A stretch of 64,000 nt of DNA, taken from contig NZ_CP146069.1 of the NCBI RefSeq assembly GCF_037023735.1, positions 1,405,501-1,469,500 on the forward strand, written 5' to 3'. The stretch is from Roseovarius sp. S88 (GTDB taxonomy: Bacteria; Pseudomonadota; Alphaproteobacteria; Rhodobacterales; Rhodobacteraceae). This document shows positions 833 through 47,890 of this stretch, one piece after another. The position numbers and the translations under genes are program-made. Within the stretch, counting starts at the first letter, position 1. The number at the start of each line of letters is the position of its first letter. The notes under the pieces were generated by a model. The model saw nothing but the letters and a program-made list of their open reading frames with translations, made no database searches and was not told the DNA's origin.

Positions 833-1681
833 GTGGAACAACTTTCAGCACCTATCAAATACTCAATCGCAAGCCTACGCATGGCGGGCTATGTGATGGA
901 AAATAATATCAAAATCGCCCAGTTGGCTGGTAAAGCTGCATTGGATGCACAGCTCTTCTTTGTCGGTCTTCGTATCGGTGATGTGACCCCGACTCAGTCG
1001 GCCAAACCAAAAGCAGCGCCCAAAGCCAAAACAAAGGCGAAGGCCAAGCCTGTTGTTAAGTCCAAGCCAGCAGCTAAGGCAAAACCTGCGGCGAAGGCGA
1101 AACTAGTGGCCATGCCAAAACCAGCGGCCAAGCCAAAGCCGGCAGCCAAAGCTGCGCCCAAGCCTGTTGCCAAGAAAGCAGCGACGAAACCTGCTGCTAA
1201 AGGCAAAACAGCCAAAGCTGTGAAACCGGCTCTCGCCAAAGTGGCCACCAAGCCAACAGCACCAAAACCTGTCGCCAAACCAGCCGTGAAAGCGAAAGCC
1301 GCGACACCATTGGCAACACCAGTGACTGCCGCTGCAAAGCCTGCACCTGAGAAAGCCGTGGCCAAGACTGTTTCTGCCAAGCCTGTTGTCGCCAACACAG
1401 CCGCGCCAAAGGCGGCTCCGAAGCCTCAGGTCAAACCAAAAACCGCTGTCAAACCGGTTGCGAAGGCTCAAAAGTCCAAAACGACAGCAGTTTCTAAGTC
1501 GGCGTCGCCGGTTCCGACATTTAAATCGAAATCTGCAGCCGTGAAACCATCGGCCAAACCTGCTGGCCAACCGCAAAAGACGGTCAGCGCGGTGCCTGCG
1601 ACCGAGCTTAAGCGGCCTCGCAAACCGTCCATGCCGCCGGAGATGCCAGCGCCGCTGAGCCCTGCGGCCAAGGACAGCTAA
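833..1681 (+). CDS. Phasin-like N-terminus with long Lys/Ala/Pro-rich tail
   Basis: About 282 residues from a GTG start at 833, chosen because GGAAAGGA lies 8-15 bases upstream; an in-frame ATG at 695 would add 46 residues of unlikely sequence. The first 65 residues look helical and amphipathic (MENNIKIAQLAGKAALDAQ), as in small granule-coat or phasin-like proteins. The remaining 215 or so residues are low-complexity repeats of KPAAK/KAAPKA type, resembling the tails of histone H1-like and AlgP proteins, so DNA or polyanion binding is possible. The family is not recognised with certainty. The gene ends inside a repeat-like hairpin at 1679 and is followed by a strong terminator. Length and start are uncertain; that the frame is coding is fairly sure. 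Confidence 0.7.
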   Translation: MEQLSAPIKYSIASLRMAGYVMENNIKIAQLAGKAALDAQLFFVGLRIGDVTPTQSAKPKAAPKAKTKAKAKPVVKSKPAAKAKPAAKAKLVAMPKPAAKPKPAAKAAPKPVAKKAATKPAAKGKTAKAVKPALAKVATKPTAPKPVAKPAVKAKAATPLATPVTAAAKPAPEKAVAKTVSAKPVVANTAAPKAAPKPQVKPKTAVKPVAKAQKSKTTAVSKSASPVPTFKSKSAAVKPSAKPAGQPQKTVSAVPATELKRPRKPSMPPEMPAPLSPAAKDS

Positions 1682-1729
1682 AGCGTTTCGCCTTTCGCCG
1701 ACGTATCAAGGGGCAAGGCGAAGGGCTTA
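1679..1729. repeat. Single-hairpin relative of the 116-bp repeat
   Basis: Starts TAAAGCGTTTCGCC, the same first 14 bases as the element at 22056, and returns as GGCGAAGGGCTTA, an imperfect complement. It corresponds to one half (one hairpin) of the longer element. Its TAA is the stop codon of the preceding gene. Confidence 0.5.
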
Positions 1730-17765: not shown

Positions 17766-17798
17766 AAACGCGTGAAAAATTCATGATTTCACGCGTTT
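17766..17798. repeat. Perfect 12-bp inverted repeat
   Basis: AAACGCGTGAAA and TTTCACGCGTTT are separated by 9 bases. The repeat lies between two minus-strand genes (starts at 17598 and 18031), in a stretch that also holds AGAGCGCTTTGCGACGAACC. It may be a terminator of the DUF1127 gene or a separate repeat family rich in GCGTTTCG. Confidence 0.6.
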
Positions 17799-17836
17799 CG
17801 CTTTGTTTTGATATCTTGGATCCGACGCTGCATTCT

Positions 17837-21529: not shown

Positions 21530-21605
21530 GTGGCAGTGAGCACAATCTCGCGAGTTGACTAAGCACTGGTGGCGATTGCGTTTCACGTTACATAATGTCA
21601 GCGAC

Positions 21606-22058
21606 ATGAGCCTCCGAATTCTAACCATATTTATTCTCGCGATGACCTTGGTCGCGACACCTCTGACCGCCCAAGAGCTTCGTGACGCCAGTGAATCGGC
21701 CCGCGCTTGGCTTAATGACTATCGCGCGCAAAAAAATACTCCGGCGCTTGGAACGTCACCACCCCTGACAAAGGCTGCCGCCGCCCATGCACGCGACATG
21801 GCGCGCAAAGGGTTCTTCAGCCATAAGGGATCTGATGGAAGCTCGGTGGCAGATCGTGTGCAACGTCAGGGATATGGCTATTGCTTCGTGGCCGAGAATA
21901 TCGCCAAGGGGCAACGTGATCTGGGGGCTGTCTTGCAAAGCTGGGCAGGGTCCAAGGGCCACAGACGGAACATGCTTAGCCGTGAGGCGCGCGAATTCGC
22001 ACTGGTGCGCGGCCCGGGCAATATCTGGGTGATGGTTCTGGGAAGGTCGGGCTGCTAA
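21606..22058 (+). CDS. Exported CAP/SCP-family protein
   Basis: 150 residues from the ATG at 21606, which starts a signal peptide (ILTIFILAMTLVATPLTAQ). The CAP domain shows AAAHARDMARKGFFSHKGSDG, then CFVAENIAKG, and LQSWAGSKGHRRNMLS, which hold the conserved His/Glu cavity residues. These proteins are common in bacteria, and their function is mostly unknown. The TAA stop is formed by the first bases of the repeat element at 22056. It follows the hisN-like pseudogene after about 75 bases. Confidence 0.88.
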   Translation: MSLRILTIFILAMTLVATPLTAQELRDASESARAWLNDYRAQKNTPALGTSPPLTKAAAAHARDMARKGFFSHKGSDGSSVADRVQRQGYGYCFVAENIAKGQRDLGAVLQSWAGSKGHRRNMLSREAREFALVRGPGNIWVMVLGRSGC

Positions 22059-22171
22059 AGCGTTTCGCCTTTAACCTGGGACATCAGCGAAAGGCGAAAC
22101 GCGTGCAACGATTGAGTGTCGCGCGGCGTTTCGCGATCATCTGTTAGTCAGGTTTATCGCGAAACGCTTTA
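22056..22171. repeat. 116-bp double-hairpin repeat, copy A
   Basis: The element begins TAAAGCGTTTCGC and ends GCGAAACGCTTTA, so its ends are complementary. Inside are two hairpins: GCGTTTCGCCTTT (22060) with AAAGGCGAAACGC (22090), and GCGTTTCGCGAT (22126) with ATCGCGAAACGC (22156), joined by a 23-base linker containing GTGCAACGATTGAGTGTCGC. A near-identical copy, inverted, lies at 47775-47890. The architecture matches a REPIN or a MITE. No transposase is nearby. Confidence 0.93.
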
Positions 22172-45191: not shown

Positions 45192-47295
45192 GATTGCTGA
45201 AAAAGAGCTGCGCGGACGTCCGCTTGAGGATCTGACGTGGAACACGCTGGAAGGTATTCCGGTCAAGCCACTCTATACCGAGGACGATCTGGGGTCGCTT
45301 GATCATCTGGGCACAATCCCGGGCCAGGCACCTTTCACGCGCGGGGTGAAGGCGACGATGTATGCCGGGCGCCCCTGGACGATCCGGCAATATGCGGGCT
45401 TTTCCACGGCTGAGGAATCCAACGCATTTTACCGCCGTAATCTGGCCGCCGGGCAGCAGGGTGTCTCGGTCGCCTTCGATCTGGCAACCCATCGTGGCTA
45501 TGACAGCGACCATGAACGCGTTGTGGGTGACGTCGGCAAAGCCGGTGTGGCGATTGATAGCGTCGAGGACATGAAAATCCTCTTTGACGGTATCCCGCTT
45601 GATCAGGTCAGCGTTTCGATGACCATGAACGGTGCGGTGATCCCGGTTCTGGCCAGCTTCATTGTGGCCGGAGAAGAGCAGGGTCATTCGCGCAGCGTTC
45701 TTTCGGGCACAATTCAGAATGACATTTTGAAAGAGTTCATGGTGCGCAATACCTACATCTACCCACCGGAACCGTCGATGCGGATCGTCAGCGACATCAT
45801 CGAATACACCGCCAATGAGATGCCCAAGTTCAACTCCATCTCGATCTCCGGCTATCACATGCAAGAGGCCGGCGCGAACCTTGTGCAGGAGTTGGCCTAT
45901 ACCCTGGCTGATGGGCGCGAATATGTGCGCGCTGCCATTGAGGCGGGCATGGATGTTGATAAATTCGCTGGTCGGCTGAGTTTCTTCTTTGCCATCGGCA
46001 TGAACTTCTTCATGGAGGCCGCCAAACTGCGCGCCGCGCGCCTGCTGTGGCACCGCATCATGACCGAGTTCGGGGCCAAGAACGAGCGCTCAAAGATGTT
46101 GCGCACCCATTGCCAGACATCGGGCGTGAGCCTGCAAGAGCAAGACCCCTATAACAACGTCATACGTACCGCCTACGAAGCGATGAGTGCGGTGTTGGGC
46201 GGCACGCAAAGCCTGCACACCAACGCGCTGGATGAGGCGATTGCGCTGCCCACGGACTTCTCGGCGCGGATCGCTCGCAACACCCAACTTGTGCTGCAGG
46301 AAGAGACAGGCGTGACCAATGTCGTCGATCCTCTGGCGGGGTCCTATTACGTCGAAAGCTTGACGGCAGAACTGGCCGAAAAGGCCTGGGCACTCATGGA
46401 TGAGGTCGAAGAAATGGGCGGTATGACCAAGGCCGTGGCCTCTGGCATGCCCAAGCTTCGGATCGAGGAATCTGCTGCCACGAGACAGGCGATGATCGAC
46501 CGGGGCGACGAAGTGATCGTAGGGGTCAACAAGTACCGCAAGGACAAAGAAGACCCGATCGACATTCTCGATATCGACAATTCTGCCGTGCGCGACAGCC
46601 AGATCGCACGTCTGGAGAAAATCCGCGCCGAGCGCGATGAAGCAGCCTGCGAGGCCACGCTGAACGAATTAACGCGGCGGGCAAAAGACGGCGGCAATCT
46701 GCTTGAGGGCGCGGTTGAGGCTGCACGCGCACGGGCATCAGTGGGAGAGATCAGTATGGCTTTGGAAAAGGAATTCGGACGCCACCGCGCCGAGGTGAAA
46801 ACGCTCGCCGGTGTTTATGGTGCGGCGTATGAAGGCGATGAAGGCTTTGCCGCCATTCAGAAGTCGGTGGAGGATTTTGCGGATGCCGAAGGGCGCAGGC
46901 CGCGCATGCTTGTGGTCAAGATGGGCCAGGACGGACATGACCGCGGGGCCAAGGTCATCGCCACGGCCTTTGCCGATATCGGGTTTGACGTTGATGTGGG
47001 GCCGCTTTTCCAGACACCGGATGAGGCGGCACAGGATGCGATTGACAATGATGTCCATGTGATCGGTATTTCAAGCCAGGCCGCTGGCCACAAGACTTTG
47101 GCGCCGCAACTCATTGATGCGCTTAAGGAAAAAGACGCCAGCGATATTATCGTGATCTGTGGCGGGGTGATCCCGCAGCAGGATTACGAGTTCCTGAAAT
47201 CCGCGGGGGTGAAGGCGATTTTTGGGCCGGGCACAAACATCCCTGAGGCGGCGCAGGATATCCTGCGGCTGATCCATGAGGCGCGCGCTGCATGA
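45163..47295 (+). CDS. mcm: Methylmalonyl-CoA mutase
   Basis: 710 residues: a single-chain enzyme with an N-terminal substrate TIM barrel ([20 protein letters not shown], then [20 protein letters not shown]) and a C-terminal B12-binding domain with [11 protein letters not shown], in which His592 is the lower cobalt ligand. It isomerises (R)-methylmalonyl-CoA to succinyl-CoA, completing propionyl-CoA entry to the TCA cycle. The start overlaps the sulfotransferase-like gene and its stop overlaps the MAPEG gene. The epimerase and the mutase chaperone (meaB) are not in the window. Confidence 0.97.
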
Positions 47296-47777
47296 GCCAA
47301 AAACGCGGCATGATCCTTGCCGGAATGGCGACCGGGGCACTCTGGGCCATAGGGCTGCTGTGGATTGGCGCTCAGATCCCCGTGCCGATTGCGATGATCC
47401 AGCCGGTTCTGATGGGCGCGGTCTTCGGCCCCGGTGTGGTGCTGATGCTGATGATTGCAAGGCTGGCGCAGAGGCGTTTTGGGGATGACACCGCCATTGA
47501 CGGACAGAAGCTGACCGGCGGCGCGGCGGTAGATCAGGCCGTGCTGACGAACACATTGGAACAGGTCGTGCTGGCGCTTTGCATCTGGCCGCTGGTTGGC
47601 TTTTTCCTGGGCGCGGGAACGGTTCTGGTGCTGGGGCTGGGGTTTGTCGTGGCGCGACTGTTGTTTTGGGGGGGATATCACCTCTCGCCGCCGCTGCGCG
47701 CCTTTGGCTTTGCCGCAACCTTCTATCCCACACTCTTCGCCGCGGTCTGGGTCATCTTGCGGCTTGTCTCGGGCTAA
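47292..47777 (+). CDS. MAPEG-family membrane protein
   Basis: 161 residues, starting in a four-base overlap with mcm. Four hydrophobic helices are visible, and [20 protein letters not shown] matches the conserved QNTLEQ motif of MAPEG proteins (membrane-associated proteins in eicosanoid and glutathione metabolism). The substrate is unknown. Its TAA stop is formed by the first bases of the repeat at 47775. Confidence 0.85.
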
Positions 47778-47890
47778 AGCGTTTCGCGATAAACTTAACT
47801 CACAAATGATCGCGAAACGCAGCGCGACACCCAATCGTTGCACGTGTTTCGCCTTTCGCTGATGTCTCAGGTTAAAGGCGAAACGCTTTA
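47775..47890. repeat. 116-bp double-hairpin repeat, copy B (inverted)
   Basis: The reverse complement matches copy A at 22056 over its whole length with about ten differences. It begins TAAAGCGTTTCGCGAT and ends AAAGGCGAAACGCTTTA. The two hairpins and the linker containing CCAATCGTTGCACG are kept. Some differences are in loops; one stem change is a C to T in the GCC hairpin. Confidence 0.93.

Follow-up and report, generated by a model that had tools for sequence, protein, structure and literature searches.

What distinguishes a short intergenic repeat with two hairpins from the miniature elements already described in bacteria? The closest plan is that of the CIR, the Caulobacter CcrM-associated intergenic repeats of Chen and Shapiro (2003), as described in PMC2229807 and PMC10969869. 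In the excerpts of PMC2229807 used here, CIR are about 110 bp long, consist of two arms and a linker, carry GANTC at the loop of one arm, end in TA and are intergenic; the review's table lists them as lacking terminal inverted repeats and as of unknown target duplication, and the same excerpts call for more information on their mobility. A second relevant system is RUP of Streptococcus pneumoniae (107 bp, IS630-Spn1), which in those excerpts is non-coding and has IS630-type ends and a TA target.

The element described here was found in a window of 64,000 nucleotides of Roseovarius sp. S88. It resembles CIR in its length of roughly 110 bp, its two inverted-repeat arms and linker, its TA termini, its intergenic position and its alphaproteobacterial hosts, with a loop GANTC in under half of its copies; what sets it apart from CIR as described is that it has terminal repeats and IS630-like ends, targets CTAG and duplicates TA. 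RUP is similar in ends, target, non-coding nature and size, but it differs in host phylum and sequence, and the present element has two separate hairpins and, in the S88 genome, no co-resident IS630. The excerpts of the RUP literature consulted make no mention of insertion at stop codons. We propose that the element is, very probably, an IS630-derived MITE that inserts at TA and is moved in trans by a transposase of the IS630 group. The preliminary description had left the choice between a REPIN and a MITE; the multiple copies, the TA duplication and the IS630-like ends favor the latter, and the former finds neither a Y1/RAYT gene nor a REP tag.

Structure and occurrence of the element

Copy 1 occupies positions 22056..22171 on the plus strand and consists of a 112-bp core with TA at each end, and copy 2 (L005) lies inverted at 47775..47890 on the minus strand. 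Both begin with TAAAGCG and end with CGCTTTA. The two inverted 116-bp copies match end to end as first reported, at 93% identity over 116-117 bases, although we count about eight differences rather than the "about ten" given earlier. In copy 1 the left hairpin (22060..22102, plus strand) has a 13-bp stem in which 22060-22072 pairs with 22090-22102, and its outer arm resembles the IS630 3' end. The linker (22103..22125) has 23 bases, and the right hairpin (22126..22167) has a 12-bp stem, 22126-22137 pairing with 22156-22167, with an outer arm that resembles the IS630 5' end. The complementary ends, the stem lengths, the loops of 17 and 18 bases and the linker all agree with the preliminary description. 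That description overlooked a single-hairpin derivative at 1679..1728 (minus strand), and also that the first TAA of both full copies closes the upstream open reading frame.

Folding predicts two hairpins for three of the four strands and a single end-to-end stem for the minus strand of copy 1, which for that one strand differs from the earlier two-hairpin picture; a further small helix forms within a loop in three of the four strands. Copy 1 has z-scores of −6.3 and −7.6 on its two strands and copy 2 of −6.4 and −4.2, and for each strand none of 200 shuffled sequences was as stable. ERIC (127 bp) and Correia/NEMIS likewise have TA termini, duplicate TA and give hairpin-forming RNA, but, compared by description, they differ in folding: in the excerpts of PMC2229807, repeats apart from CIR form a single end-to-end stem, whereas the present element is two-armed in all but one of the strands folded. 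The stems also covary. In an alignment of 46 copies, chosen from 122 full copies and spanning 14 genomes, 69 cells have both sides of a pair changed, against 19.7 ± 3.4 after shuffling (0 of 500 shuffles reached this number) and 11-27 in slid controls; the shuffle test is inflated by relatedness, which the slid controls keep, and the sequences tested are also those from which the structure was read. Such two-sided changes fall in 15 of the 31 pairs of the two-hairpin structure. The arms can be kept alike by selection or by arm-to-arm conversion, and the covariation is compatible with both.

How widespread is the element? The preliminary description, which knew of two copies, had called for a whole-genome count that included single-hairpin forms and for a search of relatives. 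The genome (3.64 Mb, 99.5% complete) contains 25 distinct places at E ≤ 0.01, three of them in the window; 15 are near full length (~116 bp, too short to encode a transposase) and ten are partial or single-hairpin. In this count L025 belongs to the copy L006, and each copy's match on the second strand is excluded. Three full-length copies (L006, L010 and L011), in both orientations, lie within 0.75 kb of one another (G000:C1:878957-879710). Carriers are found in Roseovarius and in other Rhodobacterales. At least 30 of 84 genomes of the genus match at E ≤ 1e-10, with up to ten candidates scored in each, and none of 24 genomes from other families of the class matches at E ≤ 1e-3. The relative G031 has 11 copies (L032, L047, L068-L076) with a mean identity of 94%, and these are a recent burst. 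The element is also present on nine plasmid records of Aliiroseovarius and Roseovarius. Among the named genomes, a strict double-hairpin pattern finds at least 41 stretches, 40 of them in Roseovarius, Pelagivirga, Aliiroseovarius, Celeribacter and Brevirhabdus. The remaining stretch, in Paenibacillus camelliae (L234:5202-5279, beginning TAAAGCGTTTCGC), is 63% identical, lies on a contig of 42% G+C, and is likely due to chance or convergence. None of 133 copies lies within a called gene.

Target sites and the link to IS630

The flanks of 12 sites of the S88 genome were joined around one TA, and 11 of these constructs were searched against 35 genomes of the genus. The closest of these by flank matches is G008; G075, equally close by element similarity, was outside the flank query. 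In G008 five of the 11 sites are empty (L004, L005, L011, L012 and L023), three are occupied (L001, in reduced form, L009 and L022), and L006 matched on one side only; for L014 and L018 there was no G008 match among the eight scored of 86 candidates. As read from the alignments, a single TA remains at four of the five empty sites, whereas the filled site has a TA on each side of the element, and the lengths of empty and filled sites fit a 2-bp duplication. In the exception, L004, the empty site has TG in place of TA, as part of a TGA stop codon. In the L012 copy, TG has replaced the left TA.

The bases around the duplicated TA reveal a preference. In 81 copies with both ends intact, a count that includes orthologous duplicates, TA is mostly preceded by a pyrimidine and followed by a purine. 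At 42 sites away from stop codons the target is YTAR in 32, against 0.123 (12%) of background TA (p = 3e-21), and CTAG is favored about 15-fold. IS630 itself reportedly prefers CTAG (Tenzen and Ohtsubo 1991).

The ends of the element point to the same family. Eight IS630s or IS630 fragments of Rhodobacterales have ends that match those of the element at 16-25 of 27 bases, whereas no more than 15 of 27 match in any of 2,615 control sequences that follow a TA in the window; the number of independent cases is small because several of the IS copies are nearly identical to one another. In all six IS630s for which both ends were read, the polarity is the same: the 5' end fits the right end of the element better, and the 3' end fits the left. 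The best match, 25 of 27, is between a Roseobacter litoralis 3'-end fragment, AAGCGTTTCGACATTAACCTGAGACAT, and the left end of the element, AAGCGTTTCGCCTTTAACCTGAGACAT. That fragment (pRLO149_63, L292:1201-1640) overlaps a gene annotated as IS200/IS605 tnpA. The IS630 of G034 and G083 lies between TAs, has ends resembling those of the element, and is identical to an IS630 on plasmids of Roseovarius sp. THAF9, THAF27 and THAF8; plasmid IS630s of Sulfitobacter, Roseivivax and Pseudosulfitobacter have similar ends. The copy on pTHAF9_a of Roseovarius sp. THAF9 (NZ_CP045405.1) has 27-bp ends and TA flanks like those of the element, but it is 1,058 bp long with its flanking TAs and encodes a transposase, and the interior of the element is not found in it. 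Two of these transposases score 137 bits in NCBIfam, above the IS630 cut-off of 100, and are named IS630 family transposase. PF13358 (DDE_3) matches occur in ten of 16 carriers, eight of them over the cut-off, and six of 16 DDE_3 loci have no end-like site at 16 or more of 27 bases. A Mesorhizobium IS630 scores 19 of 27 at both ends, with a polarity that is not clear.

We propose that an IS630 (Tc1/mariner) group DDE transposase would recognize, in trans, both ends of the 112-bp core and excise the element, which would then insert at TA, best within CTAG or YTAR, with TA duplicated. The IS630 group as the actual mobilizer is suggested by the ends and the target; its genes may come and go, for example on plasmids. 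In the S88 genome (G000) a profile search finds no DDE_3 match, the IS630 transposase of G100 has no match at E ≤ 1e-20, and no ISL3-type transposase is present. No IS630 gene was found in G031 despite its 11 copies. Across the 84 genomes, the element occurs in 30, IS630 (in many cases as fragments) in 28, and both in ten, exactly the number expected under independence (30 × 28 / 84). In such carriers the gene has been lost, resides on plasmids or was missed in draft assemblies, or else another transposase acts. Because the source may be transient, a missing transposase weakens the claim about present movement and not the claim about origin. G099 (L194:1392-1733) has a short DDE_3 remnant that scores below the Pfam cut-off and has an IS630-like 3' end; 45 bases away there is a full copy of the element.

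Relation to CIR-type repeats

Is the element then a CIR? The preliminary description recognized no named family, and there is no Rfam match at the gathering threshold, but the two-arm plan does fit the published description of CIR. That the element is a CIR member by descent, whatever moves CIR, is an alternative that, with CIR compared by description, we consider less likely than not. Published size, arrangement of arms and linker, TA termini and intergenic position all fit, and the same plan recurs in plasmid repeats of Bradyrhizobium, Xanthobacter, Methylobacterium and Asticcacaulis. Set against this are the terminal repeats, which are absent from the CIR entry in the excerpted table (PMC2229807), and the sequences of loop and linker, which are unlike those of the plasmid repeats read. 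GANTC, the CcrM site, does not decide the matter: it occurs in 57 of 122 full copies, 54 times at positions 88-90, with 44 copies expected to have it anywhere after shuffling, and is thus not clearly above chance.

The plasmid repeats were reached through a motif that we take to be that of a rhizobial repeat and that was then found in alphaproteobacterial plasmids. Searched as a strict pattern, it had no match in 115 genomes of the class; a 51-base BLAST query with it matched eight plasmid records. Three of the four kinds of repeat have TA followed directly by GAGC at both ends (TA-GAGC) and GATTC near the second loop; the fourth, from Methylobacterium, has no left TA and no GANTC. On pXAUT01 of Xanthobacter autotrophicus (L287:701-703), the stop codon of a gene annotated as a helicase is where a two-armed TA-GAGC repeat begins, and right behind this repeat a second copy starts. 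A Microvirga IS630 with ends beginning GAGCATC was considered as a link between the TA-GAGC repeats and IS630, and was rejected since its score of 13-14 of 27 against the present element is within the control range. We infer that the plasmid repeats are CIR elements.

A broader reading, which we put forward tentatively and hold to be somewhat less probable than its opposite, is that the two-armed CIR-type repeats of alphaproteobacteria form one class of IS630-driven miniature transposons with ends that, on insertion into TAA or TAG, rebuild a stop codon from either side. If so, stop codons would be a regular and nearly harmless docking site, and a paired hairpin would lie directly behind many genes. 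CIR-type repeats were described in 2003; here is a family on the same plan with a readable target, a duplication, parent-like ends and a single-hairpin derivative. Since these features can be read, the question of CIR-type mobility becomes testable with a named IS630 transposase.

Stop codons, host RNA and single hairpins

In the window, all three copies share a TAA with a reading frame. The gene for a CAP-domain protein (21555..22058, plus strand) ends with the TAA at 22056-22058, which is the first three bases of copy 1, and the gene for a MAPEG-family protein (47292..47777, plus strand) ends with the TAA at 47775-47777, the first three bases of copy 2. In the empty G008 orthologue of the latter site, TAA stands at the same place. 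The TAA of the single hairpin closes an open reading frame at 695-1681 that has no Pfam match and a weak coding score. This placement extends to the family as a whole. A codon table derived from 25 long open reading frames of the window was used to score frames, and 133 copies (25 own, 108 from relatives), less 13 with no recognizable end and with four orthologous duplicates merged, gave 116 sites. Among coding frames that abut an element end, the stop is the element's TAA in 50, against five and zero in the other two frames. At least one shared stop occurs at 48 of the 116 sites (42-47 under stricter thresholds). Of 23 S88 copies, 12 have a terminal TAA that doubles as the stop codon of a gene; copy 1 falls just below the score threshold and is outside the 12, though its reading frame is that of the CAP protein. 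Ten of 13 stop-sharing ends in this genome were scanned against Pfam, and all ten reading frames match at E ≤ 0.001, nine of them above the curated cut-off, with SSB, phosphoribosyltransferase (DBI_PRT) and class-III aminotransferase among the matches. MAPEG is an eleventh such end with a Pfam match, and several matches reach the last residues. Against this pattern, in the public annotation of four distinct plasmid copies from Roseovarius and Aliiroseovarius (six records, two of them repeats), none of the four shares a stop.

The ends of the element suit such insertions. Because each end reads TA followed by AAGCG, a TAA or TAG stop codon that receives the element reads TAA in frame from either side afterward, and the protein is unchanged. 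The single hairpin L023 is an example: the gene ends in TAG when the site is empty, as in G008, and in TAA when it is filled. Availability of TA alone was rejected as the cause, since stop codons hold just 5-6% of the non-coding TA sites of the window; weighting by target raises the expected share to about 15%, again for the window only. The observed 12 of 23 exceeds this prediction, which leaves any part played by selection conjectural. We suggest that the preference for YTAR, a motif that includes the TAR stop codons, explains part of the placement and that purifying selection, through selective removal of copies in genes and promoters, probably explains the rest. Copies are scarce between divergent genes: one of 25 S88 copies lies there, as do nine of the 101 copies in relatives for which this was determined (seven more were undetermined); the comparison figure is 17 of 100 intergenic YTAR sites in the window. 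As a consequence, host mRNAs would acquire a double hairpin immediately behind the stop codon. Docking of this kind indicates how an insertion can be rendered almost harmless by target preference combined with end sequence, and how the 3' ends of many mRNAs can be rewritten. In the literature covered, chiefly outside subscription journals, we saw neither the element nor docking of IS630 MITEs at stop codons described, including in excerpts of PMC10969869, PMC3049150, PMC6382973, PMC2817692, PMC3116915, PMC2170065 and PMC3189936; queries with aaagcgtttcgc returned other subjects only, and MITE with Roseovarius returned none.

Could the host instead maintain the element in 3' untranslated regions as a terminator, mRNA stabilizer or regulatory RNA, selected for its structure and with mobility as mere history? 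The covarying stems, the strong folding of both strands, the shared stop codons and the small number of copies between divergent genes would all suit such a role. We nevertheless consider it improbable: the element is not conserved at a given gene, since G008 lacks it at five of the 11 queried sites, and 54 of the 84 genomes have no match at E ≤ 1e-10. Neither full copy has a terminator-like match, a weak argument as the scan takes loops of 3-8 and needs five T. The covariation could stem from arm-to-arm conversion, and no known attenuator or RNA gene, which the preliminary description had named as the case that would overturn it, appears among Rfam families at the gathering threshold in the window.

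At one site with the same flanks, the S88 genome has a 50-bp single hairpin (L016) where G008 has a 116-bp double (L029), and two GCGTTTYGC repeats stand at the ends of the part missing from L016. Because this single stands where G008 has a double, singles look like deletion products of doubles. We infer that single hairpins arise by such deletion; they may also move, as L023 is a single whose site is empty in G008. That the element is a REPIN, two inverted REP hairpins moved in single-stranded form by a RAYT (Y1) transposase, is highly improbable: its two inverted hairpins with a linker and its occurrence as doublets and singlets are as in REPINs, but the RAYT gene sought at the suggestion of the preliminary description is absent from the 99.5%-complete genome (no Y1_Tnp, PF01797, match, the same search being positive in five of 14 control genomes), no GTAG/CGTC-like tag was seen by eye beside the hairpins in the 46-copy alignment, and the TA duplication at empty sites, the IS630-like ends and the repeats at the L016 breakpoints all differ from that system. 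Finally, we note 29 bases at 17787-17815 of the window, perhaps a decayed hairpin, whose complementarity to a part of copy 1 is 76% and which include CGCGTTTCGC.
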